64,000 nt of DNA from Cupriavidus necator N-1. Its GTDB lineage: Bacteria; Pseudomonadota; Gammaproteobacteria; Burkholderiales; Burkholderiaceae. The stretch's first letter is position 1. Each line of letters begins with the position of its first letter. The notes below the pieces were generated by a model. The model was not told the DNA's origin. It searched no databases and was given only the letters and a program-made list of their open reading frames with translations. Position numbers and translations under genes: made by a program. Shown here in pieces: positions 5,400 through 57,961 of this stretch. The stretch covers positions 2,418,001 to 2,482,000 of the forward strand of contig NC_015723.1 of assembly GCF_000219215.1 (NCBI RefSeq). Direction: 5' to 3'.

Positions 5400-6326
5400 C
5401 TACCAGCAGTTGTCCGCGCTGCCCGCGCCGGACGCACGGTGGCTGGCAAAGTGGTCCAGCAGGAAGTCCACCAGCGCCCGCACCTTGTCCGGACGATGGT
5501 TGCGCGCCGGGAACACGAGATGGATATCCGCGGGCGCGAACTGCCATTGCGGCAGCACCCGGCGCAGGGCGCCGCTGCGCAGGTGCTCCGCAACATCCCA
5601 CTCGGAGCGAACGATCAGGCCCTGGCCATCCAGCGCCCAGGCCAGCGCCGATTCCCCGTCATTGGTACTCATGGTGCCGCGGACCTTGACGGTCTCCTGC
5701 TGTGCGCCATGGCGCAGGTGCCAGGTGCCGAAGGTCTCGTCGGCTTCGCGGATGAAGATGCAGTTGTGCCGCGCCAGCTCGCGCGGGCTCGACGGCTCGC
5801 CCCGCGCTTCCAGGTAGGACGGCGCGGCACAGAGCAGGCGGCGGTTGCTGGCCAGCAGGCGCGCCGTCAGCCGCACGTCCGGCATCTCTCCAAAGTGGAT
5901 CATGGCGTCCAGGCCCTGCTCGACCAGGTTCAGGGGCCGGTCGCTCAGGTAGAGCTGGACCTCGATATTCGGAAAGCGGCGCGAGAACCCCGACAGTGCC
6001 GGCGCGATATGCCGCCGTCCGAAGCCGAGCGTTGCGCCGATCTTCAGCAAGCCGTGCGGGGTGCTGCCGGTGCCCGCGATCGATCGCTCCAGCGCCTCCA
6101 TCTCCGCAAGGATCCGCGCCCCTTCCACCAGATAGCTTTCCCCTTCCGGCGTCAGGCTGATGCGGCGCGTGGTCCGGTGCAGCAACCGGACGCGCAGCCG
6201 TGCCTCCAGCCCCGCCAGCCGCTTGCTGACCGCGGGCGGCGTCACGCCAAGCTCCTGCGCTGCGCCGGCCAGGCTGCCGTGCTTGTTGATGCACGCGAAG
6301 AACGCGACGTCCGAGAGGTTATCCAT
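5400..6326 (-). CDS. LysR-family regulator, DmlR-like
   Basis: LysR-type regulator of 308 residues. The N-terminal winged helix-turn-helix (residues 4-63) contains GSLAGAAQELGVTPPAVSKRLAGLE; the effector domain runs from about 90 to 295. Sequence style (RLLHRTTRRISLTPEGESY, FIRE..FGTWHLR) places it in the CrgA/DmlR branch, whose E. coli member controls D-malate use. It is transcribed divergently from the Bug receptor and leuCD-like genes, 102 bases away, so it most likely senses a substrate or product of that pathway and controls the shared intergenic region. The assignment to DmlR itself is only by similarity. Confidence 0.88.
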   Translation of the reverse strand: MDNLSDVAFFACINKHGSLAGAAQELGVTPPAVSKRLAGLEARLRVRLLHRTTRRISLTPEGESYLVEGARILAEMEALERSIAGTGSTPHGLLKIGATLGFGRRHIAPALSGFSRRFPNIEVQLYLSDRPLNLVEQGLDAMIHFGEMPDVRLTARLLASNRRLLCAAPSYLEARGEPSSPRELARHNCIFIREADETFGTWHLRHGAQQETVKVRGTMSTNDGESALAWALDGQGLIVRSEWDVAEHLRSGALRRVLPQWQFAPADIHLVFPARNHRPDKVRALVDFLLDHFASHRASGAGSADNCW

Positions 6327-44919: not shown

Positions 44920-45454
<535 letters not shown>

Positions 45455-46243: not shown

Positions 46244-47692
46244 TCAAGGCATGACCGGTGGATGGTAAGGCAGCGTCGTGGCGAACGCCCACAGCATCAG
46301 CAGCACCAGCGGCGTGTGCACCAGCAACTGCGTGAAGGTGAAGCCGACCACATCCTTGGCCCGGATCCCCAGCACGCCGAGCAGCGGCAGCATCCAGAAG
46401 GGATTGATCAGGTTCGGCAGCGCCTCGGCCGCGTTGTAGACCTGTACCGCCCATCCCAGGTGGACTTGCAGTTCATTGGCGGCCTGCATCACGTACGGAG
46501 CCTCGATGATCCACTTGCCGCCGCCCGACGGCACGAAGAACCCCAGCACGGCCGAATACACGCCCATGACCGCTGAGAACGATTCGGTGGTCGCCATCGT
46601 AACAAAGGCCGACGCGAGATGATGGGATAGCGTCGCACCGTCGACTCCGGTCGCCTTGGTGAGGATAAAGGCGATACCGCCATACAGCGGAAACTGGATC
46701 AGCACGCCTGAGGTCGACGGCACCGACCTGGCCACGGCGCGCAGGAAGCGCTTCGGGCGCCAGTTCAGCAACATGCCGAGAAGCAAGAACAGGAAGTTGT
46801 AGGTGTTCAGGTTGGAGATGGCGAGGATCGGGTCTTTTGCGGAAAACTCCTGGTAGAGCCAGCTTGCGCCCATCGCCACCAGCGCCAGCGTCAGTAGCGG
46901 GCTGTATTCCAGCCACTCGCCAGGGCGCGACGGCCACGCGACGCCGTCGTCGGCATCGTTCAGGTCTACACCCATATCGGCCGCGGTGCGGGCCCGCTCC
47001 CCGGTGGGCGCAGAAAAATATGCAATCAGCAGTGACGCGACAATCAGCACGACGGTCATCGCCATCGATTGCCACAGGAAGATCGTTTCAGCGAACGGGA
47101 TCACCCCGGTGATATCCAGCAGCGACTTCGGCAGGCTGACAGGATTTGCCTGTAGCTGCGCGGCCGAGGAACTGAGCCCTAGCGCCCACGTTGCGCCCAT
47201 CCCCAGATAGGCCGCCGCGCTCGCGGCCCGATAATCCACGCGCAAGCCCCCACGTCGGGCAATCGCGCGCACCAGCAAGCCGCTGAAGATCAGGCTGATG
47301 GCCCAGTTGAGCAGCGACGTCAGCAGGCTCACCAGCGCCACGAACGCGACTGCGCCGCGGGCCGTACGCGGCAGCGATGCCAGCCGCGCGATCAGCATCG
47401 ACGCTGGCGGCGAGACCGCCACCACATAGCCGGCGATCGCCACCACCGCCATCTGCATCGTGAACGGGATCAGGCTCCAGAAGCCGTCACCGAATGCCTT
47501 CGCCACGGCCGGTGCCGACGCCCCGACCAGCATAGCGCCGAGCGCCACCACCACGACGGCGATCGCGGCAAAGATGTAGGAATCCGGAAACCAGCGCTCT
47601 GACCAGTTCGTCACCCGTACGGCCAGGCTCTCCAGGCCACCTTGCTGCGGCTTGCCGGCATCGGCAAATGCCATCCTCGTTGTCTCTTTCAT
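46244..47692 (-). CDS. AtoE-family short-chain fatty acid transporter
   Basis: Inner-membrane carrier of 482 residues with about 11 hydrophobic segments, matching the AtoE family (short-chain fatty acids, acetoacetate). Typical stretches are WFPDSYIFAAIAVVVVALGAML, ISLIFSGLLVRAIARR, FPLYGGIAFILT and VPSGGGKWIIEAPYVMQA. AAGGAG precedes the ATG at 47692. It is the third gene of an operon behind the OCD-family enzyme (31-base gap) and the Mo-flavin-ferredoxin fusion, so its cargo is probably the carboxylic acid handled by those enzymes rather than simple butyrate. Confidence 0.88.
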   Translation of the reverse strand: MKETTRMAFADAGKPQQGGLESLAVRVTNWSERWFPDSYIFAAIAVVVVALGAMLVGASAPAVAKAFGDGFWSLIPFTMQMAVVAIAGYVVAVSPPASMLIARLASLPRTARGAVAFVALVSLLTSLLNWAISLIFSGLLVRAIARRGGLRVDYRAASAAAYLGMGATWALGLSSSAAQLQANPVSLPKSLLDITGVIPFAETIFLWQSMAMTVVLIVASLLIAYFSAPTGERARTAADMGVDLNDADDGVAWPSRPGEWLEYSPLLTLALVAMGASWLYQEFSAKDPILAISNLNTYNFLFLLLGMLLNWRPKRFLRAVARSVPSTSGVLIQFPLYGGIAFILTKATGVDGATLSHHLASAFVTMATTESFSAVMGVYSAVLGFFVPSGGGKWIIEAPYVMQAANELQVHLGWAVQVYNAAEALPNLINPFWMLPLLGVLGIRAKDVVGFTFTQLLVHTPLVLLMLWAFATTLPYHPPVMP

Positions 47693-47723
47693 GCTGAACT
47701 CCTTGGCAGTTTCCTTGATCGTT

Positions 47724-48668
47724 CTAGTTATTTGCCACGGCTTCGAAACACATCGCCGCGGCGGCAAGATCTTCCAGGGCGGTACCGACAGCCTTGAAGA
47801 CCGTAATCTCATCGTCTGAAACTCTTCCTGCGTGCCGGGCCCGACAGAGACCGGCAAGGTCGCTACGGATATCTTCCCGGGCGATCACGCCGTTGCCGAG
47901 CGGGGACAGCAGGTCGCCGGCCTTGGTTGCCGCCTCGTCCGTATCGACAAATACAGAGGTGCCCGCAAAGCAAGCGTCATCGGTTTCACGCATCGCTGGC
48001 GTAAAGCCACCGATCAGGTCGACATGGGTGCCGGGACGAAGGTATTCGCGACGGATCAGCGGTTCGGTCGAAAGCGTCGCCGCGCTGATGACGTCCACGG
48101 CGCAGGTGTCCGTCTCGAGCCTGTCCACCACGTATGCGTCGAAGCCATCGCTGCAAAGCTGTTCGGCCAGCCGGCGGCCCTGAGCAGGGTTGATGTCCCA
48201 CACCCCGACCCGCTCGATCTGCCGAACGCTGCGCCAGGCATACGGCACCAGGCTGGCCACCCGACCGGCGCCCAGCAAGAGCATGGATCTGGCGTCCTTG
48301 CGGCTCAGGAAGGATGCGCCGAGCGCCGACGCGGCCGCGGTGCGCCGGGACGTGATCTCGTTGCCGTCGATCAGCGCCAGTGGCTCGCCGGTCTCCACGC
48401 TGTAGAGGATGTAGGTCGAGAACAGTCCCGGCAGCGAGCGCGCGGAGTTGCCGGGATAGATCGAGACGGTCTTGACGCCAAGGTATCCCTGCGACGGGCT
48501 CCAGGCCGGCATCAGCAGCAGCGTCCCCTGCTGGCCCTGCGCGGTGGTGACGGTATGGTTATGCCGCAGCGGCACCTCGCAGCCAGAGGCAAACGCTTCC
48601 TTGAGTGCATCAACAAGCCGGTCAAAAGGGAGCGACGCGCGGGCGCTCTCTGCATCGATATTCAGCAT
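47724..48668 (-). CDS. Ornithine cyclodeaminase/mu-crystallin family enzyme
   Basis: NAD(P)-dependent enzyme of 314 residues in the OCD/mu-crystallin family, whose members are ornithine cyclodeaminases, ketimine (piperideine- or pyrroline-carboxylate) reductases or alanine dehydrogenases. Visible are the substrate part VPLRHNHTV...LLLMPAWS..LGVKTVSIYPGN, DGNEITSRRTAAASALGASFLSRKDA, and the Rossmann loop LLLGAGRVASLVPYA. It is the middle gene of the Mo-enzyme operon, 30 bases after it. The substrate cannot be decided from sequence; a role in reducing or forming an imine intermediate is an inference. Confidence 0.88.
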   Translation of the reverse strand: MLNIDAESARASLPFDRLVDALKEAFASGCEVPLRHNHTVTTAQGQQGTLLLMPAWSPSQGYLGVKTVSIYPGNSARSLPGLFSTYILYSVETGEPLALIDGNEITSRRTAAASALGASFLSRKDARSMLLLGAGRVASLVPYAWRSVRQIERVGVWDINPAQGRRLAEQLCSDGFDAYVVDRLETDTCAVDVISAATLSTEPLIRREYLRPGTHVDLIGGFTPAMRETDDACFAGTSVFVDTDEAATKAGDLLSPLGNGVIAREDIRSDLAGLCRARHAGRVSDDEITVFKAVGTALEDLAAAAMCFEAVANN

Positions 48669-48698
48669 GGCGTTATCGGGTCAGAAGTAGAAAGGGAG

Positions 48699-51600
48699 TC
48701 AGGCATCGATCACCAGGTCACTGGCCGGTACGGCCTGGCACGCGAGACAAATACCGGGGTCATCAGGTACCTCGCCTTGCAAGTGGTGCGCCGACCCGGA
48801 AACGATCCTGACGGCACAGCTTTCGCATTGCCCGACGCGGCATCCGCTGGGCAAGCGCACGCCACGCGCCTCGGCAAAGCCGAGCAGAGCGCCGTCCTCG
48901 GAACGCCATTGGTGGACGACCCCCGACTTGCGGAAATGCACCTGGAATGCCTGTCCGTGCTCGATCTTCGCGACAGCCGGAGAGCGAAAGATCTCCTTGT
49001 GGATATCGAAGTGCGGCACGCCTCTGGCGGCCATGCCCTCGGCGAAGGCAGTCATCATCGGGACCGGGCCGCACATGTAGATCAGCGGGCGCATGGCGAG
49101 CAGCGCTTGCGGGACCGCGTCGGCGGATACGCGCCCATGCACGTGGAAGTCGCGCCCCGCGATGTCCCCGTCAGCCGGCGCATCGTAGTAATTGATCACC
49201 GACAGCGTGGGAATCGCCGCTTCCAGTTCGCGAATCCTGCGCTTGAAGGCGTGCGTCGCACCGTTCTGGTTCGCATAGAGCAGCAGGATCCTGGGCGGCT
49301 CCGCCTGGCCGGCCAATGACTCCAGCAAGTTGATGAAAGGCGTGATGCCGATGCCGCCGGCAAGCAGCACAAGGGGCCGCGCGGTACGGGTCGGCATGAC
49401 AAAGGTGCCGCCGGGCGCGCGCAGTTCGACAACGTCGCCGACTGCGAGCTGTTGGTTGATGAACGATGAGGCGCGGCCGGACACCAGTTCACCATTGGCG
49501 AGCCGCGCCACTGTCTGTCGCACCGAGATCGAATAGCACTGGCGGTCTGCCATGATCGCGGGTCCGGTCAGCGAGTAGGACCGGATCACCTCCTGCCCCC
49601 CGCCGCCGATGAACAACCGGATGGTCGCGTGCTGGCCCGGCAGAAAGTCGGGCAGGCGGCCGCCATCGGTGGGTGCCATGTACACCGATGTGACATCGGC
49701 GGCTTCCTTGCACAGCGCCACCACGCGGAACACGCGGAAGTCCTCCCACGGCCGGCGCCGGATATCGAAAGCGGTTTCGCGCTCGATGCTGCAGCGATAG
49801 GCGCGCAACGGCGACGAGCCGCTGACCGGATCCTGGCGCTGCGCGTCGATCAACCCGTTGAAGTTGACACTGTCCGCGCCACACACGGCGAGCGGTGCTT
49901 GCCCCATCGCGTCGCAGCGTTGCCACCAGCCGTACTCGCCCACCAGCACGGCGGGATGCAGGCCCGGATCGATGCGTGCCGTGAACAATGCACTGCCGCC
50001 CGGCGTCGAGATGCGCACGGGGTCGCCGCTGCGGATGTCCCGTGCCGCGGCGGCTTCCCTGGAGATATCCAGCCGCGGCAGCATCGCCTTGCGCCGCAAA
50101 GACGCGACACCGCGCTGCTGGCTATGGCAGTAGTAGCCATTCTTCGCCGACGTCAACAAATAGGGGAACGCAGATCGCGCGGCATCTCCCTGTTCAATCG
50201 AAGGTTCCTGGTAGCCGGGCAAAGGCGAATAGCCATGCGCCAGCAGCCCTTCGGAGTACAGCTCGACCAGGCCTGTCGGCGTATTGAAAGGCCTGGCGGA
50301 TTTGCCCATGCGGTATTTCATCTCGGTGTCCTCGACCGGGATGCGAACCCCTTCTGGCTTGGCGCGTAGCGCTGCCACGGTCAGCCCCATCGGCGCGAGC
50401 ATGTAGTCCCAGCCGGCTTCCAGGCTTGCGCCGAAGAATGCTTCCTGCAGCCCGATGCGCGCCGCCAGCGCAAACACAATCTCGTTGTCCGAACGCGCCT
50501 CGCCGCGCGGCGGGACCATGCGCTGACGCAGCTGCACCAACTTCTCAGCCTCGGCAGAAACCTCGAAGCCGATGCGCAGCCCCTCGCGTTCCCATGGCGT
50601 GCTCACGGGCAGCAGGATGTCCGCATACTTCGCGCTCGGATTTTCAAAGAGATCGCAATGCACGTAGAACGGCAGCGCGCGCAGTGCCCGCTCCCCCATT
50701 GCCACATCCGGCTGCGAGAGCAGCGGATTCGTGCCGAACGCGATCAGCGTCGTCACCGCATAGGGCTTCTTGTCGGTAATGGCGCGATACAGGTCGCGCG
50801 CGGTGATCCAGCCCTGCGCGGGCGGCCCCAGCGGGCGTTCTGACAATCCCAGGGCCTTGCGCCCCTGCTCCGGACTCAGCAGGTCCAGGCGGCTCACCGC
50901 ATTGAACGGCGGCTTCTGGTAAATGCGGTTGCCACCGCGCCGGTCGAAGCTGCCCGTCAGGGCGTAGAGGCAGGCAATCGCACGCTCGGTCTGCGTGGCG
51001 TTCTCATGCTGCCCGACGCCGGACCAGGCGTGATAGGCAACGCGCCGTGCCGTGCCGATCATGCTCGCGGCATGGCGGATATCGCCCTCCGGAATCCACG
51101 TCAGCCGGGCCGCGCGATCGGCGGGATAGCGCGCGCATTCCGCCGCATAGAGCTCGAACGCCGGCTGGCACATCAGCATGGACTGGTCATGGCGATCGCC
51201 AACGGTCACCTCAAAGGTTCCGCGCAGCGCGATGCGGCCGGGAACATGGCACTGGCCGCCCGCCGGCACGGCCATGCGCTGGTGGGCGTCCCAGACGACA
51301 AAGGCGTCTGTCTGCCCGATACCGATGTCGCGCCCGCGCAGGAAGGCGCCATTGTCCTTGCGTACCAGCAGCGGACCGTTGGTCCATTGCCGCACGAAAT
51401 CGATATCGAAGGCATTGGCCTCGATCAGCAGGTTGGCCAATGCCATGGCCAGCGCGGCATCGCTGCCAGGTTTCACACGCAGCCATTGATCGGCTTCTTC
51501 CGCCAGTCCGGTCTGCCGCGGGTCGACCACGATCAGCCTGGCGCCGGCGGCCCGTCCGGCGCCGATTGCCTCTGCCTGCGACAGCCACGTGTTGGCGGGA

Positions 51601-52127
51601 TTGTGTCCCCACAGAAGAATCAGTTCGGCATTGCGGTAATCCGCCGTCGGCATCCCGCAGCCAAAGGTAAAGGCATGCGCGAAGTCCTTGTGCCAGTTGC
51701 AGATCTCGGTGGCGTAGCAGATGTTGGGGCTGCCGTAGAGGCGGACGAAACGCTCGATCCAGTCGATGCTGTCCGACAGCGCCGTGCCACTGGGTGTGGT
51801 CACGGCGAAGGCAACCGACTCCGCACCCAGCGTGGTGCGCGCCTCGATCAGGCGCGCCGCGATCTGATCGAGCGCCTCCTCCCATGAAATGCGCACCCAC
51901 CCTGGATCCGCTGCGTCTTTTGGGTTCGTCCTGCGCATCGGATGCAACAGCCGCTCGGCGCTGTGCACGAGTTCGGGCGCTGCCTTTCCCTTGAGGCACA
52001 TCGCCTTGCCCGTGGGGTGTTCGCCATCCGGGCGGACCGCAACGAGGGTGTCTCCGTTCACGACATTGATCGTTCCGCAGCGGGAACGACACAGCGTGCA
52101 AAACCCCTTCTTTTCGACTTCGCTCAT
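48699..52127 (-). CDS. Molybdopterin oxidoreductase fused to a flavin reductase and a [2Fe-2S] ferredoxin
   Basis: A 1142-residue three-part enzyme. Residues 1-785 are a DMSO-reductase superfamily (bis-MGD) catalytic chain: a [4Fe-4S] set Cys10, Cys13, Cys17 and Cys44, a likely Mo-ligand Cys143 (ATEICNWHKDF), and the later MGD-binding blocks. Residues about 790-1040 are a phthalate-dioxygenase-reductase-like FAD/FMN and NAD module (RSYSLTG, GGIGITPF near 924, CGPVPMM). The tail is a plant-type ferredoxin with Cys1096-X4-Cys1101-X2-Cys1104 and Cys1127 or Cys1130. There is no Tat signal, so it is cytosolic. It resembles neither a classic formate dehydrogenase (no Cys-His pair) nor NasA. Start ATG 52127 follows GGAAG. 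Substrate unknown. Confidence 0.9.
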   Translation of the reverse strand: MSEVEKKGFCTLCRSRCGTINVVNGDTLVAVRPDGEHPTGKAMCLKGKAAPELVHSAERLLHPMRRTNPKDAADPGWVRISWEEALDQIAARLIEARTTLGAESVAFAVTTPSGTALSDSIDWIERFVRLYGSPNICYATEICNWHKDFAHAFTFGCGMPTADYRNAELILLWGHNPANTWLSQAEAIGAGRAAGARLIVVDPRQTGLAEEADQWLRVKPGSDAALAMALANLLIEANAFDIDFVRQWTNGPLLVRKDNGAFLRGRDIGIGQTDAFVVWDAHQRMAVPAGGQCHVPGRIALRGTFEVTVGDRHDQSMLMCQPAFELYAAECARYPADRAARLTWIPEGDIRHAASMIGTARRVAYHAWSGVGQHENATQTERAIACLYALTGSFDRRGGNRIYQKPPFNAVSRLDLLSPEQGRKALGLSERPLGPPAQGWITARDLYRAITDKKPYAVTTLIAFGTNPLLSQPDVAMGERALRALPFYVHCDLFENPSAKYADILLPVSTPWEREGLRIGFEVSAEAEKLVQLRQRMVPPRGEARSDNEIVFALAARIGLQEAFFGASLEAGWDYMLAPMGLTVAALRAKPEGVRIPVEDTEMKYRMGKSARPFNTPTGLVELYSEGLLAHGYSPLPGYQEPSIEQGDAARSAFPYLLTSAKNGYYCHSQQRGVASLRRKAMLPRLDISREAAAARDIRSGDPVRISTPGGSALFTARIDPGLHPAVLVGEYGWWQRCDAMGQAPLAVCGADSVNFNGLIDAQRQDPVSGSSPLRAYRCSIERETAFDIRRRPWEDFRVFRVVALCKEAADVTSVYMAPTDGGRLPDFLPGQHATIRLFIGGGGQEVIRSYSLTGPAIMADRQCYSISVRQTVARLANGELVSGRASSFINQQLAVGDVVELRAPGGTFVMPTRTARPLVLLAGGIGITPFINLLESLAGQAEPPRILLLYANQNGATHAFKRRIRELEAAIPTLSVINYYDAPADGDIAGRDFHVHGRVSADAVPQALLAMRPLIYMCGPVPMMTAFAEGMAARGVPHFDIHKEIFRSPAVAKIEHGQAFQVHFRKSGVVHQWRSEDGALLGFAEARGVRLPSGCRVGQCESCAVRIVSGSAHHLQGEVPDDPGICLACQAVPASDLVIDA

Positions 52128-52158
52128 CGCCACTTCCAGCAACTTGTATTTGTGCTGG

Positions 52159-52172
52159 ATGCTAGCTAGCAT
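52159..52172. promoter_or_regulatory. 14-base palindrome in the LysR/Mo-enzyme gap
   Basis: ATGCTAGCTAGCAT is a perfect palindrome in the 96 bases between the divergent Mo-enzyme and LysR genes, 32 bases before the former. It satisfies the LysR T-N11-A rule. It lies in the only AT-rich part of the neighbourhood. Confidence 0.5.
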
Positions 52173-52223
52173 GGGGCGATATAGCTAATTCATAGTTCTG
52201 ACATTGCAATATCGGAAAAATCG

Positions 52224-53132
52224 ATGCTCCCAACCTTGAAACAGATACAGCACTTTGTGGCGATTGCTGAGACGGGCCAGGTATCGAGAGCGGCGCAACG
52301 CTGCAATGTTTCGCAATCGTCCATGACCGCCTCACTCAAGGGATTGGAAGACGTCGTAGGCGCCCCGCTGTTCTCCCGGCACGCAGCCGGCGTAAAGCTG
52401 ACCGCGGCCGGCATCCGCTTCCTGCGGCATGCCCAGCAGATCGAGGCTGCGGTACGGGATGCCGTCAGCGCTGCGGCGGTGACCCCCAGCACGGTGACAG
52501 GCGCCATCCGCCTCGGTGTCACCGAAACCATCACGGCGTACGTGCTGCCCAAGCTGCTGCCGGCGCTTGAACAAAAGTTTCCGCTACTCGAACTCGAAAT
52601 CCTGGAAAGGCCTCGCGGCGATATCGAGGCCGATATCCAGGCCGGCAAGCTCGACCTGGCATTGCTGCTGGTTTCCAACCTGCCGGAGATGCATCACATC
52701 GGCTGCGAAACCCTGCTTCGATCGCCGCGGCAACTCTGGGGCCATCCTGACCATCCTCTGATGCAGCTCGAGCAGATTAGCCTGACGGACGTGGCGCGGC
52801 ACGACTACATACTGCTCGACATGGACGAGCATATTGCCACCGTGATCAAGTACTGGAGGCAGTACGGGCTCACGCCGAGCGTCCGCCTGCAAAGCTGCTC
52901 GATCGAAGCCGTCCGCAGCCTGGTAGCGGCGGGACGCGGCGTCTCCATCCTGTCCGATCTGGTCTACCGGCTGTGGTCACTGGAGGGCCAGCGCATCCTG
53001 CGCCGCAGCCTTTCCGACCGGGTCCCATCCATGGACGTCGGCCTGATCTGGAGACTCGATCCAGGACCTGACGAGCACACGCATGCGCTGCGGGAGTTCC
53101 TGAGGATCGCGCTGCTGGAGACCATGCGTTAG
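52224..53132 (+). CDS. LysR-family regulator of the Mo-enzyme operon
   Basis: LysR-type regulator of 302 residues. The helix-turn-helix is TLKQIQHFVAIAETGQVSRAAQRCNVSQSSMTASLKGLEDVVGAPLFSRH; the effector domain begins GAIRLGVTETITAYVLPKLLPALEQKFP. The AbgR/HcaR-like pattern HPDHPLMQLEQISLTDVARHDYILLDMDEH is seen around 190. It is divergent from the Mo-enzyme/OCD/AtoE operon, its likely target. It converges with norB, separated by a terminator. Confidence 0.88.
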   Translation: MLPTLKQIQHFVAIAETGQVSRAAQRCNVSQSSMTASLKGLEDVVGAPLFSRHAAGVKLTAAGIRFLRHAQQIEAAVRDAVSAAAVTPSTVTGAIRLGVTETITAYVLPKLLPALEQKFPLLELEILERPRGDIEADIQAGKLDLALLLVSNLPEMHHIGCETLLRSPRQLWGHPDHPLMQLEQISLTDVARHDYILLDMDEHIATVIKYWRQYGLTPSVRLQSCSIEAVRSLVAAGRGVSILSDLVYRLWSLEGQRILRRSLSDRVPSMDVGLIWRLDPGPDEHTHALREFLRIALLETMR

Positions 53133-53204: not shown

Positions 53205-55493
53205 TCAGCGCACCGCCGTCTTCATCCGCGCCGGCACCGCATCCGCCGCCAGCGGCGTCCGATTCGCCAGCCCCAGCACCACCTGCCAGGCAAACGACAC
53301 CGCGCCGACGATAAACACCACGTCGCCGAAGGTGCGCACCCAGCGCAGGGTCTGCAGGATGGGCTGCTGCATGAATTCCTCACTGCGCGCATACCAGGTG
53401 CCATGCTCCACGCTGGCCAGGAACTGGATGATGCCGATCGGCAGCAGGCTGGTGCCGATCATCAGCACCAGGCCGATGTTCAGCCCCCAGAAGGCGGTCT
53501 TCATCAGTGTTGGGCTGAGCCGGTAGGCCGGACGCACGTAGCGCAGCACCAGCAGCGTGAAGCCCAGCGCCAGGAACCCGTACACCCCGAACAGCGCGGC
53601 ATGGGCGTGCACTGGCGTGGTGTTCTGCCCCTGGATGTAGTACAGCGCGATCGGCGGGTTGATCATGAAGCCGAACACCCCGGCGCCCAGCATGTTCCAG
53701 AACGCCACCGCGACAAAGCACATCAGCGGCCACTTCAGGTCTGCCATCCACGGCGCGCGCTGCTTCAGGCTCCAGTTCTCCCAGGCTTCATGGCCCAGCA
53801 CGATCAGCGGCACCACTTCCAGCGCGCTGAATGCGGCGCCCACCGCCATCACTGGCGTCGTGGTGCCGGCAAAGTACAGGTGATGGAAGGTGCCGGGAAT
53901 GCCTCCGAGCATGAACAGCGAGGCCGAGGCCAGGCTGGCGGCCGTTGCCATCGGGCGCGACACCAGGCCCAGCGTGGAGAAGATGAAGGCCAGCGCGGTG
54001 GTGGCAAAGACTTCGAAGAAGCCTTCCACCCACAGGTGCACCACCCACCAGCGCCAGTACTCCATCACCGTCAGGCTGGTACGTTCGCCGTAGGCCAGGC
54101 CCGCGCCGTAGAACAGGCCGATCGCCACCACCGACGAGGTCAGCAGCGCCAGCAGGTTGCGGTCGGTGCCGCGCGCGCGCAGCGCCGGCAGGATGCCGCG
54201 CATCATCAACACCAGCCAGATCAGGATGCCGGCGAACTTGCCGATCTGCCACAGCCGGCCCAGGTCGACATACTCATAGCCCTGGTGGCCCAGCCAGAAG
54301 TTCAGGTGGGCCGGCAGCTTCTGCGCGATCGCCAGGTAGTTGCCGGTGAACGATCCCACCACCACGACCACCAGTGCCCAGAACAGGATGTCCACGCCCA
54401 GGCGCTGGTACTTCGGGTCCTTACCGCCGTTGATCAGCGGCGCGAGGAACAGGCCCGCGGCCAGGAAGCCGGTGGCGATCCAGAACAGCGCGCTCTGGAT
54501 ATGCCAGGTTCGCACCAGTGCGTACGGGAACCACTGCGAGACGTCGATGCCGTAGAACTTCTGGCCCTCGACGGTGTAGTGCGCGGTAAAGCCGCCCAGC
54601 AACACCTGGAACACGAACAGCGCCACCACCAGGAACAGGTACTTGCCGAGCGCGCGCTGCGACGGCGTCAGCGCCACGGACAGCAGCGGATCGCGCGCCG
54701 GCGCCTGCGGCGGCGCATCTTCCTTGCCGCGCAGGAAGGCCCACGCCCATACCAGGAAGCCGACCCCGGCCAGCAGCACCACCACGCTGATCACCGACCA
54801 CACCACGTTCTCGCTGGTGGGCTGGTTGCCGATCAGCGGTTCATGCGGCCAGTTGTTGGTGTAGGTGGCTTCGTGCCCCGGGCGCGCGGTCGATGCGGCC
54901 CACGCGGTCCAGAAGAAGAAGTGCGTGAGTTGTTCGCGACGCTCGGCGCTGGGCAGCGTGTTCTCCTTCATCGCGTAGTGCTCGCGCGTGGTGTGCAGCG
55001 CGGGCGCATCGGAGAAGAGCTTGTCGTAGTAGGCGGCTGTATTGGCAATGGCCTGCGCGCGGCGCTTCGACACAGTCAGTACCTTGGTGGCCGGATCGGC
55101 GGCATTGCCGCGGTACTCGGTGCGCAGCTGCTCGCGCAGCGCGGCCTGCGCCGGCGCGTCAAGTTGCGCATAGGGCCGGCCGTAGGCGTCCTGCGCGGCC
55201 AGCTCCAGCCACGCGGTCAGTTCGCGGTGCAGCCAGTCGGCGGTCCAGTCCGGCGCCTGGTAGGCGCCGTGGCCCCAGATGGAGCCAAGCTGCATGCCGC
55301 CCACGGACTGCCAGGCGGTCTGGCCGTCGAGGATCTCTTCACCGGTGAAGAGCGTGCGGCCCTCGGTCGTGACGACCTTGGCCGGCATTGGCGGGGCCTG
55401 CCGGTACACCTCGACGCCGTAGTAGCCGAGCAGGGAGAACGTGACCGCCAGCACGGCGATCAGCAGGAACCAGAGTCTGCGGTAGGAACCCAT
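53205..55493 (-). CDS. norB: Quinol-dependent nitric oxide reductase NorB (qNor)
   Basis: Single-chain NO reductase, 762 residues, taking electrons from quinol to reduce NO to N2O. The first about 260 residues are the extra N-terminal part found in qNor: a membrane segment (8-30) and the periplasmic domain with ILDGQTAWQSVGGMQLGSIWGHGAYQAPDWTADWLHREL. Then follow about 12 membrane segments with haem-copper motifs HIQSALFWIATGF, GYEYVDLGRLWQ, VVHLWVEGFFEVFATT (binuclear centre His and Glu) and FHHLYFAGTTTPVMAVG. No separate NorC is needed. It lies 34 bases after norA in the same transcript and ends at a strong terminator. Confidence 0.96.
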   Translation of the reverse strand: MGSYRRLWFLLIAVLAVTFSLLGYYGVEVYRQAPPMPAKVVTTEGRTLFTGEEILDGQTAWQSVGGMQLGSIWGHGAYQAPDWTADWLHRELTAWLELAAQDAYGRPYAQLDAPAQAALREQLRTEYRGNAADPATKVLTVSKRRAQAIANTAAYYDKLFSDAPALHTTREHYAMKENTLPSAERREQLTHFFFWTAWAASTARPGHEATYTNNWPHEPLIGNQPTSENVVWSVISVVVLLAGVGFLVWAWAFLRGKEDAPPQAPARDPLLSVALTPSQRALGKYLFLVVALFVFQVLLGGFTAHYTVEGQKFYGIDVSQWFPYALVRTWHIQSALFWIATGFLAAGLFLAPLINGGKDPKYQRLGVDILFWALVVVVVGSFTGNYLAIAQKLPAHLNFWLGHQGYEYVDLGRLWQIGKFAGILIWLVLMMRGILPALRARGTDRNLLALLTSSVVAIGLFYGAGLAYGERTSLTVMEYWRWWVVHLWVEGFFEVFATTALAFIFSTLGLVSRPMATAASLASASLFMLGGIPGTFHHLYFAGTTTPVMAVGAAFSALEVVPLIVLGHEAWENWSLKQRAPWMADLKWPLMCFVAVAFWNMLGAGVFGFMINPPIALYYIQGQNTTPVHAHAALFGVYGFLALGFTLLVLRYVRPAYRLSPTLMKTAFWGLNIGLVLMIGTSLLPIGIIQFLASVEHGTWYARSEEFMQQPILQTLRWVRTFGDVVFIVGAVSFAWQVVLGLANRTPLAADAVPARMKTAVR

Positions 55494-55527
55494 GATGCGA
55501 AGTCGTTGGTTATGGTGGCGGGAGGGC

Positions 55528-56244
55528 TCAGGCGTGCGTCGAGCAACCGCATCCGGTGGCTTGCGCGGCGGCGGGTGCCGTGGTGATCTCGAACAGCACG
55601 TTGTTTTCCAGGTGGATGTGTTCCATCAGGTCTTCGCGCAGCGTGCGCAGGCCCAGGTAGAGCGCGCGCCAGGTATTGCAGGCCGCGCGCGGCAGCGTGA
55701 TGTCGTTGGTCAGCGCCGCCAGCCGCTGCAAGGCCACGCCGTGGTCGTCATGCTCGGCGCGCATCACCATGATCGGCCGGCCCGCGGCGGCATGCAGGCC
55801 GCGCGACAACATCGGGAACAGCACCTGCTCTTCCTTCTGCATATGCATTTCCAGCTCGCCCAGCATCTCGCTCAGGTGGTCGGCCAGGCCAAGCGGGCAA
55901 TCGGGCCGGTCACCGTGCACCTGCTCTACGCGCCGCGCCAGGCGGATCAGCTCGGGCAACTGCTCGCGATGGCGCGCATGGAAGCGCGTGAGGATATGGT
56001 CGATCAGCTCGGCCGGCGCCGCCGTGTTCCAGTCCTGCGCCGACGGCCCGGTTTCGTCCTGCAGCGCACGCAGCCGGGCGTCGATGGTGCCGACGGCAGC
56101 CGCATCGAGACCCTTTTGCTGCGCGGCGTCGCGCAGGGTCTGCTTGCCCCCGCAGCAGAAGTCCAGCCCGTAGTCGTGGAAGATCCGGGTGGCACCGGGG
56201 ATCAGACGGGCCAGTTGGCCAAGCGAGTGGTCCTGCAAAGTCAT
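55528..56244 (-). CDS. norA: NO-linked di-iron protein NorA (RIC/YtfE/ScdA family)
   Basis: Di-iron hemerythrin-like protein of 238 residues of the RIC/YtfE/DnrN family. The ScdA-type N-terminus holds FHDYGLDFCCGGKQTLRDAA; the hemerythrin-like domain (about 80-220) has several conserved His and Glu (HARHREQLPELI, HMQKEEQVLFP, EHDDHG, EHIHLENNVLF); the C-terminus ends in CGCSTHA. In R. eutropha the homologue NorA is co-transcribed with norB, binds NO and lowers cytoplasmic NO; repair of damaged iron-sulfur clusters is proposed for relatives. It begins the norAB operon, under the sigma-54 promoter and NorR sites. Confidence 0.93.
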   Translation of the reverse strand: MTLQDHSLGQLARLIPGATRIFHDYGLDFCCGGKQTLRDAAQQKGLDAAAVGTIDARLRALQDETGPSAQDWNTAAPAELIDHILTRFHARHREQLPELIRLARRVEQVHGDRPDCPLGLADHLSEMLGELEMHMQKEEQVLFPMLSRGLHAAAGRPIMVMRAEHDDHGVALQRLAALTNDITLPRAACNTWRALYLGLRTLREDLMEHIHLENNVLFEITTAPAAAQATGCGCSTHA

Positions 56245-56284
56245 GATGGTTGCTCCGTGTCGAAGTTATGCCTGCATGACTTAC

Positions 56285-56298
56285 GCGAGGAGCGTGCC
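56285..56298 (-). promoter_or_regulatory. Sigma-54 promoter of norAB
   Basis: On the minus strand GGCACGCTCCTCGC gives the -24 GG and -12 GC with ten bases between, close to the sigma-54 consensus TGGCAC-N5-TTGC. A transcript would start near 56273, about 29 bases before norA. The NorR sites lie 40-110 bases upstream, right for an enhancer. Confidence 0.75.
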
Positions 56299-56338
56299 TG
56301 AAAAAAACCTATCCGGATCAATGACTTGAAACAGTGAT

Positions 56339-56395
56339 GGTGATTAATACCTTATACTTCTCGTGGTACTAATTACCCTGACGGTGTTTTTCACC
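56339..56395. promoter_or_regulatory. Three NorR enhancer sites (GGT-N7-ACC)
   Basis: GGT-N7-ACC occurs three times: 56339-56351, 56365-56377 and 56383-56395, all with AT-rich cores. This is the motif established for NorR in R. eutropha, and three sites are the known number. The last one ends directly before the norR ATG, so NorR binding probably limits its own expression. Confidence 0.88.
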
Positions 56396-57961
56396 ATGCT
56401 ACCGAGCGCGATGTATCCCGAGTTGCTGGCCGACCTTGTCACCGACCTGCCGCATGCGGTGCGCCTGCAGCGGCTGGTCAGCATGCTGCGCACGCATTTC
56501 CGCTGTGGCGCGGTGGCGCTGCTGCGGCTGGAGGAAGACCACCTGCGCCCCGTCGCGGTCGATGGCCTGGTGCGCGATGCGCTGGGCCGGCGCTTTGCAG
56601 TCGGCCTGCACCCGCGCCTGGCCGCCATCCTGGCGCGGCGCGGCGTGACCTGCTTTCATCACGACAGCGTGCTGCCCGATCCGTACGACGGCCTGATCGA
56701 CGAGCACGTCGGCGAGCCGCTGCCGGTGCATGACTGCATGGGCACCAGCCTGGCCGTGGACGGCCAACCCTGGGGCGCGCTCACGCTGGACGCGCTGGCG
56801 ATCGGCACCTTCGATGCGGCGGCCCAGGCCGAGCTGCAGCGGCTGACGGTGATCGTCGAAGCGGCCATCCGCACCACCCGGCTGGAAGGCGAGATCCGCG
56901 CGCTGCAGCTGGCGCGCGGCACGCCCGATGCCGACGAAGGCACGGCCCAGCATGGCGACATCGGCGGCGAGATCATCGGTCAGAGCGAGGCCATCGCCAA
57001 CCTGCTGCATGAGCTGGAAGTGGTGGCCGATACCGACCTGCCGGTGCTGCTGCTGGGCGAGACCGGCGTGGGCAAGGAGCTGTTCGCGCACCGCCTGCAC
57101 CGCCAGTCGCGCCGGCGCGCGCAGCCGCTGGTGCATGTCAACTGCGCGGCGCTGCCGGAGTCGCTGGCTGAAAGCGAGCTGTTCGGCCACGCGCGCGGCG
57201 CCTTCTCCGGCGCGACCGGCGAGCGCCCGGGGCGCTTCGAGGCCGCCGACGGCGGCACCCTCTTCCTCGATGAAGTCGGCGAACTGCCGCTGGCGATCCA
57301 GGCCAAGCTGCTGCGCACGCTGCAGAACGGCGAGATCCAGCGGCTGGGCTCGGACCGCCCGCGCCGCGTCAACGTGCGCGTGATCGCCGCCACCAACCGC
57401 AACCTGCGCGAGCATGTGCGCGACGGCTCGTTCCGCGCCGACCTGTACCACCGCCTGTCGGTCTACCCGATCCCGATCCCGCCGCTGCGCGAGCGCGGCA
57501 ACGACGTGCTGCTGCTGGCCGGGCGCTTCCTGGAGCTGAACCGCGCGCGCCTGGGGCTGCGCAGCCTGCGGCTGTCAGGTGGTGCGCAGGATGCGCTGCG
57601 CAGCTACCGCTGGCCCGGCAACGTGCGCGAGCTGGAACACGTGATCAGCCGCGCGGCGCTGCGTGCCGTCAGCCGCGGCGCGGGCCGCAACGACATCGTG
57701 ACGCTGGAGCCTGAACTGCTCGATCTCTACGGACTGGATGTGCCCGCGGCACACCATGCCGGCGCCGGCATGGCCAGCGCGTTCGCCGCCCCGGCACTTG
57801 CCGCAGGCATCACCCTGCGCGACGCGGTGGAACAAACCCAGCGCGCCTGCATCGAACAGGCACTGACGGACCAGGGCGGCAATTGGGCGCAGGCAGCGCG
57901 CCAGCTGGGTATCGATGCCAGCAACCTGCACAAGCTGGCCAAGCGGCTGGGGTGCAAGTGA
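56396..57961 (+). CDS. norR: NO-responsive sigma-54 activator NorR
   Basis: Enhancer-binding protein of 521 residues. An N-terminal GAF domain (about 15-170) binds NO through a mononuclear iron; possible ligands are in PLPVHDCMG. The AAA+ domain (about 190-430) has Walker A GETGVGKE (221-228), the sigma-54 contact loop GAFSGA (268-273) and Walker B GGTLFLDE. A Fis-type helix-turn-helix closes the protein (NWAQAARQLGIDASNLHKLAKRL). The sigma loop has Ser where GAFTGA has Thr. ATG 56396 directly follows the third NorR site; ATG 56411 is an alternative. It activates the divergent norAB. Confidence 0.95.
   Translation: MLPSAMYPELLADLVTDLPHAVRLQRLVSMLRTHFRCGAVALLRLEEDHLRPVAVDGLVRDALGRRFAVGLHPRLAAILARRGVTCFHHDSVLPDPYDGLIDEHVGEPLPVHDCMGTSLAVDGQPWGALTLDALAIGTFDAAAQAELQRLTVIVEAAIRTTRLEGEIRALQLARGTPDADEGTAQHGDIGGEIIGQSEAIANLLHELEVVADTDLPVLLLGETGVGKELFAHRLHRQSRRRAQPLVHVNCAALPESLAESELFGHARGAFSGATGERPGRFEAADGGTLFLDEVGELPLAIQAKLLRTLQNGEIQRLGSDRPRRVNVRVIAATNRNLREHVRDGSFRADLYHRLSVYPIPIPPLRERGNDVLLLAGRFLELNRARLGLRSLRLSGGAQDALRSYRWPGNVRELEHVISRAALRAVSRGAGRNDIVTLEPELLDLYGLDVPAAHHAGAGMASAFAAPALAAGITLRDAVEQTQRACIEQALTDQGGNWAQAARQLGIDASNLHKLAKRLGCK

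Follow-up and report, generated by a model that had tools for sequence, protein, structure and literature searches.

Positions 46244–53132 of the window, by which we mean the whole 64,000-nucleotide stretch of Cupriavidus necator N-1 analysed here (NC_015723.1, positions 2,418,001 to 2,482,000), hold an operon for a single-chain molybdenum–flavin–[2Fe-2S] enzyme, an ornithine cyclodeaminase (OCD)/mu-crystallin-family protein and an AtoE-type carrier, with a divergent LysR-family regulator gene. The best explanation overall, advanced tentatively and rated slightly below even, is that the operon imports a small cyclic carboxylate and assimilates it via Δ1-pyrroline-2-carboxylate (Pyr2C) to L-proline. 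The domains, the operon, its conservation and the reductase class are the firm part of this account, as read from sequence. The molybdenum (Mo) enzyme belongs to a known superfamily, but its fused architecture and its clade are uncharacterised, and it probably serves a new pathway.

The three structural genes lie on the minus strand in the order Mo gene (48699–52127, 1142 residues), OCD-family gene, predicted to encode an imine reductase of the pyrroline/piperideine-2-carboxylate reductase type (47724–48668), and AtoE-type (SCFA_trans) carrier gene (46244–47692, ATG at 47692), with gaps of 30 and 31 bases between them. The regulator gene (52224–53132, plus strand) diverges from the Mo gene, and its product exceeds the Pfam cut-offs for both HTH_1 and LysR_substrate. 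In our checks, the open reading frames (ORFs), gaps and domains were as a preliminary description of this DNA had them. An alternative start of the Mo gene at 52172 would give 1157 residues; because this ATG falls within a perfect palindrome (52159–52172), the 1142-residue form beginning at the ATG at 52127 is the likelier one.

Translated from 48699–52172, the Mo chain exceeded the Pfam cut-offs for Molybdop_Fe4S4, Molybdopterin, Molydop_binding, NAD_binding_1 and Fer2, and scored slightly under that for FAD_binding_6 (20.2 versus 21.1). In the 1157-residue numbering, Pfam places the [4Fe-4S] and bis-molybdopterin guanine dinucleotide (bis-MGD) molybdenum part at residues 22–789 (49806–52109, minus strand), followed by a flavin/NAD(P)H reductase part at residues 808–1064 (48981–49751, minus strand) and a plant-type [2Fe-2S] domain (PF00111) at residues 1092–1149 (48726–48899, minus strand). 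These domains bear out the earlier statement that one chain holds every electron-transfer part, and no twin-arginine motif was visible by eye in its N-terminus, in line with the reported absence of a Tat signal. The Molybdopterin and dinucleotide-binding domains, the cysteine set for [4Fe-4S] and the superfamily fold are all present; on these features, the chain is a bis-MGD member of the dimethyl sulfoxide (DMSO) reductase superfamily, with predicted metal and cofactor. Cys158 (codon 51699–51701), which occupies the Mo-ligand position and is conserved in 122 of 125 relatives, is the likely ligand, and Cys1111, 1116, 1119 and 1145 of the [2Fe-2S] domain are conserved in 109–110 of the 112 relatives that exceed 1050 residues. 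In the predicted structure, the local confidence score (pLDDT) fell below 50 at residues 1–15, 1063–1068 and 1109–1117, the last of these by the [2Fe-2S] site.

Among the 50 fold matches listed for the chain, the best was acetylene hydratase (26% identity), an enzyme that performs the non-redox hydration of acetylene at a tungsten site. Residues 812–1156 matched phthalate dioxygenase reductase (PDR; PDB entry 2pia). Reductase parts of the PDR/flavohaemoglobin type normally take electrons from NAD(P)H, and because the reductase part belongs to this class we read the chain as running from NAD(P)H to the substrate; the two directions previously left open, NAD(P)H-driven and NAD(P)+-reducing, are thereby narrowed to the former as the likelier.

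A homology search with the Mo protein returned 2026 proteins at E ≤ 0.001 among 8000 candidates scored, the best 120 of which align at 52–95% identity over 95–100% of the query. Compared with NCBIfam models (best 25 of 45 matched), the chain scored far under the cut-offs. Assimilatory nitrate reductase NasC/NasA was rejected on scores of 140.9 versus 1100 (NF047855) and 78.8 versus 1000 (NF041323), and formate dehydrogenase alpha on a score of 219.5 versus 666.25 (TIGR01591) and on the position of the chain in a separate clade. In a tree of 122 family rows and nine molybdenum enzymes encoded in the same genome, built by a quick method, midpoint-rooted and with long reference branches, the family rows formed one clade (SH-aLRT support 100), and forms of ~800 residues sat among its early branches. 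By its cut-offs and this tree, the Mo part is a separate, predicted Cys-ligated clade, neither nitrate reductase nor formate dehydrogenase. It thus lies outside NasA, NapA and formate dehydrogenase, and neither of the outcomes that the preliminary description named as fatal to its proposal, a Mo part within a clade of known substrate or neighbours without conservation, was found.

The chain shares its superfamily with the Cys-ligated DMSO reductase branch (acetylene hydratase, polysulfide/thiosulfate reductase, formate dehydrogenase, Nap/Nas), but its family forms a clade of its own and carries the reductase and [2Fe-2S] parts as C-terminal fusions. With PDR/flavohaemoglobin-type reductases it shares the arrangement seen in phthalate dioxygenase reductase, a flavin–NAD(P)H part and after it a ferredoxin at the C-terminus; whereas PDR-type reductases serve an iron oxygenase, the one encoded here is fused to a bis-MGD molybdenum part. 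On two Variovorax plasmids (L095 and L161), Mo part and reductase are encoded by two neighbouring genes, which suggests that the one-chain form arose by fusion. The joining of the electron-transfer parts therefore stands for this chain but not always for the family, in which split homologues exist. The split genes of L095 and L161 lie opposite genes of dihydroorotase, hydantoinase/carbamoylase and dihydroorotate dehydrogenase type, and the enzyme there is possibly a related one for a pyrimidine-type acid.

The OCD-family protein scored 432.5 over residues 1–312 with NF004793 (pyrroline/piperideine-2-carboxylate reductase; cut-off 322), which, of 14 NCBIfam models listed, was the only one whose cut-off it exceeded. 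It carries Phe at position 222, where the genome's cyclodeaminase-like paralogue (L184) has the Asp of GGDCPGK, which we take to be the catalytic residue of ornithine cyclodeaminase. Among 91 cluster members, duplicates included, this position is Phe in 85, Asp in 4 and Thr in 2. An ornithine cyclodeaminase was rejected on the replacement of the catalytic Asp by Phe222 and on a score of 119 versus 350 with NF005762. These features make it quite probable that the protein is an imine reductase of the pyrroline/piperideine-2-carboxylate reductase type. Where an imine or keto intermediate had been proposed, the imine fits the class of this partner enzyme and no keto step need be assumed.

A cyclic imine is supported most strongly by the apparent exchange of this protein for an unrelated one at two loci. 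At L107, an Ldh_2/MLD2 protein, unrelated to OCD, is encoded between AtoE and Mo with no OCD gene near, and L021 and L045, in the same five-row clade, retain the OCD gene; at L147, a gene for an Ldh_2 protein adjoins the Mo gene and diverges from it. The Ldh_2 profile includes the L107 protein, whose match is by construction. For the proteins of both loci, the nearest PDB entry was 1wtj, a Δ1-piperideine-2-carboxylate reductase (239 bits; the next 128 and 126). Proline-ketimine reductase activity is reported for members of both superfamilies, OCD and MLD2, in PMC4113996. The Pyr2C reductases of hydroxyproline pathways described there come from the same two families that alternate here and likewise yield proline; there, however, the imine stems from a hydroxyproline dehydratase, whereas here it would stem from the Mo enzyme. 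We lean towards the view that the Mo enzyme makes the cyclic imine Pyr2C, and we infer both the direction of its reaction and the cyclic-imine product.

Conservation was followed through several samples. From a scan of genome contigs, the best 80 of 235 encoding stretches were taken; together with the window, 49 of these 81 contain the AtoE-cluster gene, 47 the OCD-cluster gene and 41 the LysR-cluster gene. To these were added loci from 17 of 39 plasmid matches, 55 of the 62 places found by a whole-genome scan of the family (matches in 57 of 398 genomes) and 18 of the 20 found in the order of Xanthobacter (15 of 297 genomes; one more was already present as L051). Under even sampling, with the centre genome included, matches occurred in 5 of 369 genomes of the class; the figures were 3 of 248 for the family to which L009 belongs and 2 of 296 for the class to which L061 belongs. 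Collapsing 178 loci at 90% identity left 125 distinct Mo genes, 116 of which are flanked on either side by 3 kb or more. Of the 125, 66 have AtoE no further than 3 kb away, 58 have an OCD gene no further than 3.5 kb away, and 46 have both; the OCD count leaves out Asp222/Thr222 members where clustering recognised them and includes tblastn matches unchecked for Phe. Grouped by identity to the window's Mo protein, both neighbours are present in all 17 relatives at 60% or above, AtoE in 34 and OCD in 28 of 46 at 50–60%, AtoE in 15 and OCD in 13 of 47 at 45–50%, and neither in any of the 15 below 45%. The expected conservation of the OCD and AtoE neighbours thus holds in close relatives and is lost below 45% identity. 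Since the same gene set recurs in many genera, the operon is not a chance arrangement. Several Actinobacteria have the gene order GntR–Mo–OCD–AtoE, and some Rhizobiales relatives carry an ATP-binding cassette (ABC) transporter, read as Liv-type, in place of AtoE. Loci L137, L140 and L158 form a subgroup sharing a Liv-type transporter and an aldo-keto reductase; a small conserved protein is common to L140 and L158, and an L-aspartate dehydrogenase is annotated in L158 and was read in L140. Enterobacterial plasmid homologues (H25–H33, H35, H38, H39) align over 54–78% of the query, and near-full-length Mo homologues are present on other plasmids (H5–H9).

Proline-linked genes were found within ~10 kb in 8 of the 125 distinct loci and in none of 60 random control stretches (1.16 Mb) from 13 genomes carrying the Mo gene, 12 of them Burkholderiaceae (p = 0.03 by bases, 0.04 by loci). 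The queries came from the target loci themselves: proline dehydrogenase (ProDH) and Δ1-pyrroline-5-carboxylate (P5C) dehydrogenase (P5CDH) from L096, PutA from L035 and PF05544 from L009. Aldehyde dehydrogenase matches to P5CDH of less than 300 bits (L008, L009, L026, L075, L092, L109, L159) stand outside the count of eight. In Rhodococcus, ProDH and P5CDH lie 5–8 kb from Mo at two loci (one after collapsing). A PutA-like gene lies 1.9 kb from Mo in Zobellella, where it is one of two Pro_dh genes in the genome, and 6.8 kb from Mo in Xanthobacter, where it is the only one. At L101, a divergent paralogous locus with no OCD gene nearby, P5CDH follows AtoE by 21 bp (804.1 versus a cut-off of 613.6). 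The count also includes the Ldh_2 reductase loci L107 and L147. Proline-racemase-family genes lie 6–7 kb from Mo in L009 (PF05544 by Pfam) and L046 (by similarity to the L009 protein), the former scoring below threshold for all four functions named in its listing; a trans-3-hydroxyproline role in the window's genome was rejected, no PF05544 gene being present there. L101 further encodes, at 6159 to ~7800 (script orientation) and divergently from the Mo paralogue, a protein with a weak tautomerase match. L101 and L097 share a rubredoxin–cupin-like fusion (the cupin part by reading), which in L101 is divergent from the Mo paralogue.

In the pathway we propose, AtoE, or the Liv-type ABC transporter in some Rhizobiales relatives, would import the small cyclic carboxylate. 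Electrons would pass from NADH or NADPH through flavin, [2Fe-2S] and [4Fe-4S] to a Cys-ligated bis-MGD Mo within one cytosolic chain, and a two-electron reduction at the Mo site would convert the substrate to Pyr2C, which the OCD-family enzyme would reduce to L-proline for conversion to glutamate by ordinary proline catabolism. The most economical substrate would be pyrrole-2-carboxylate, the simplest stable compound equal to Pyr2C minus two hydrogens; this assignment is a tentative one and the least certain element of the scheme. At L101, the addition of two electrons elsewhere on the ring would yield the tautomer P5C, the substrate of the P5CDH encoded there. The fullest form of the proposal, in which a one-chain, NAD(P)H-driven Mo enzyme dearomatises pyrrole-2-carboxylate by reduction, with no need of ATP, on a route via Pyr2C to proline, is possible but somewhat doubtful.

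Several points weigh against this pathway. Chemically, a pyrrole would be difficult to reduce with NADH. Neither an OCD nor an Ldh_2 reductase gene lies nearby at 65 of the 125 loci, and the three enterobacterial plasmid loci opened carry the Mo gene without either partner. The exchange of reductase families was seen at two loci only, and both families accept the six-membered imine as well, which makes pipecolate a possible product. The excess of proline-linked neighbours is modest and post hoc, with cut-offs fixed after the matches were seen, and no recognised proline gene lies within ~10 kb of the window's own operon. The scheme does not account for the arginase gene found after AtoE in three Cupriavidus loci. 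Finally, distant relatives stand beside other pathways (orotate-type; L-aspartate dehydrogenase with a Liv-type transporter), and the wider Mo family may therefore act on several substrates.

The imine might also have another source. The Mo enzyme might dehydroxylate a hydroxypyrroline, or convert a six-membered ring to Δ1-piperideine-2-carboxylate and thence to pipecolate; the six-membered imine falls under NF004793 and 1wtj, by coverage or by name, and the proline-racemase-family genes of L009 and L046 would suit such a role, but the nameable catabolic neighbours are proline and P5C dehydrogenases (no search for pipecolate genes was made) and PF05544 is absent from the window's genome. We consider this unlikely, if the least unlikely of the alternatives. 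Also unlikely is that the Mo enzyme deoxygenates an N–O compound, such as a cyclic nitrone or an N-hydroxy amino acid, to a cyclic imine that the OCD-family enzyme then reduces. Other Mo enzymes do reduce N-hydroxylated compounds, and the imine evidence is common to this route and the one from pyrrole-2-carboxylate; however, no recurrent N-oxygenase was recognised in the neighbour listings, where most neighbours are unannotated, and N-hydroxyproline would yield proline directly, leaving the imine reductase superfluous.

The same imine evidence, and the fact that sequence cannot give direction, would also admit an oxidative enzyme that converts D-proline or an N-substituted proline to Pyr2C with electrons passing to NAD+, the OCD-family enzyme re-reducing the product to L-proline. 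This is improbable, since a flavohaemoglobin/PDR-type reductase part normally draws electrons from NAD(P)H and none of the Mo enzymes in the 50 fold matches listed is known as an amine dehydrogenase. A route in which the Mo enzyme reduces N-hydroxy-ornithine or N-hydroxy-arginine and the OCD enzyme cyclises ornithine to proline would account for the arginase genes and for the OCD family name. It is very improbable, as Phe takes the place of the cyclodeaminase Asp in 85 of the 91 cluster members, the paralogue L184 retains that Asp, and an Ldh_2 reductase is unlikely to deaminate ornithine. Reduction of a small cyclic carboxylate to Pyr2C remains our preferred reading.

The carrier scored 286.7 with PF02667 (cut-off 27) and 280.2 with TIGR00366, under its cut-off of 575.75. 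At L009, moaA begins 139 bp past AtoE (365.1 versus a cut-off of 284.05), which fits Mo dependence. In the three Cupriavidus loci L104, L112 and L113, the arginase gene follows AtoE by 9, 124 and 40 bp, respectively (TIGR01229 281.6 versus 227.6, tested for L112). A LysR-cluster gene is present anywhere in the locus stretch in 94 of the 178 loci, duplicates included. The palindrome ATGCTAGCTAGCAT (52159–52172, no strand assigned), a candidate operator, has a unique match in the window, where 0.11 matches are expected with two mismatches allowed. Exact copies were found in 15 of 264 loci (some duplicates), always preceding this Mo gene and solely in Cupriavidus-group loci, and in none of the 60 control stretches.

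No enzyme or pathway of this kind was described in the literature searched, whose coverage excludes most subscription papers, in agreement with the earlier remark that no known pathway has this gene set. Microbial pyrrole-2-carboxylate metabolism is termed 'known but poorly understood' in PMC12899673, and the metabolism known from its references is oxygenase or decarboxylase based. The breakdown by flavin oxygenase or decarboxylase cited there shares the proposed substrate but is oxidative or decarboxylating, whereas the route proposed for the operon is reductive. If true, the proposal would add a new reaction type for molybdenum enzymes, the reduction of a heteroaromatic acid ring by NAD(P)H without ATP, would provide a reductive route for pyrrole-2-carboxylate in soil bacteria, and would explain a large family mostly named just 'molybdopterin-dependent oxidoreductase'. 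The self-contained single chain is practical for expression and assay.

The operon is adjoined by genes of a norB-type nitric oxide reductase, a NorA/RIC-like protein and a NorR-like regulator (53205–57961, named by ORF reading), and narG lies just beyond the window (G000:C1:2414280-2416445); the operon is therefore located in a denitrification region. A functional link to the adjacent nor genes was rejected and the proximity taken as chance, the norB-cluster gene recurring solely in Sphingobium L092 (from listings, with no systematic count). At 45313–45406, the window contains a nine-base tandem repeat, TGGGACTGA, in 10.4 copies with 97% matches.

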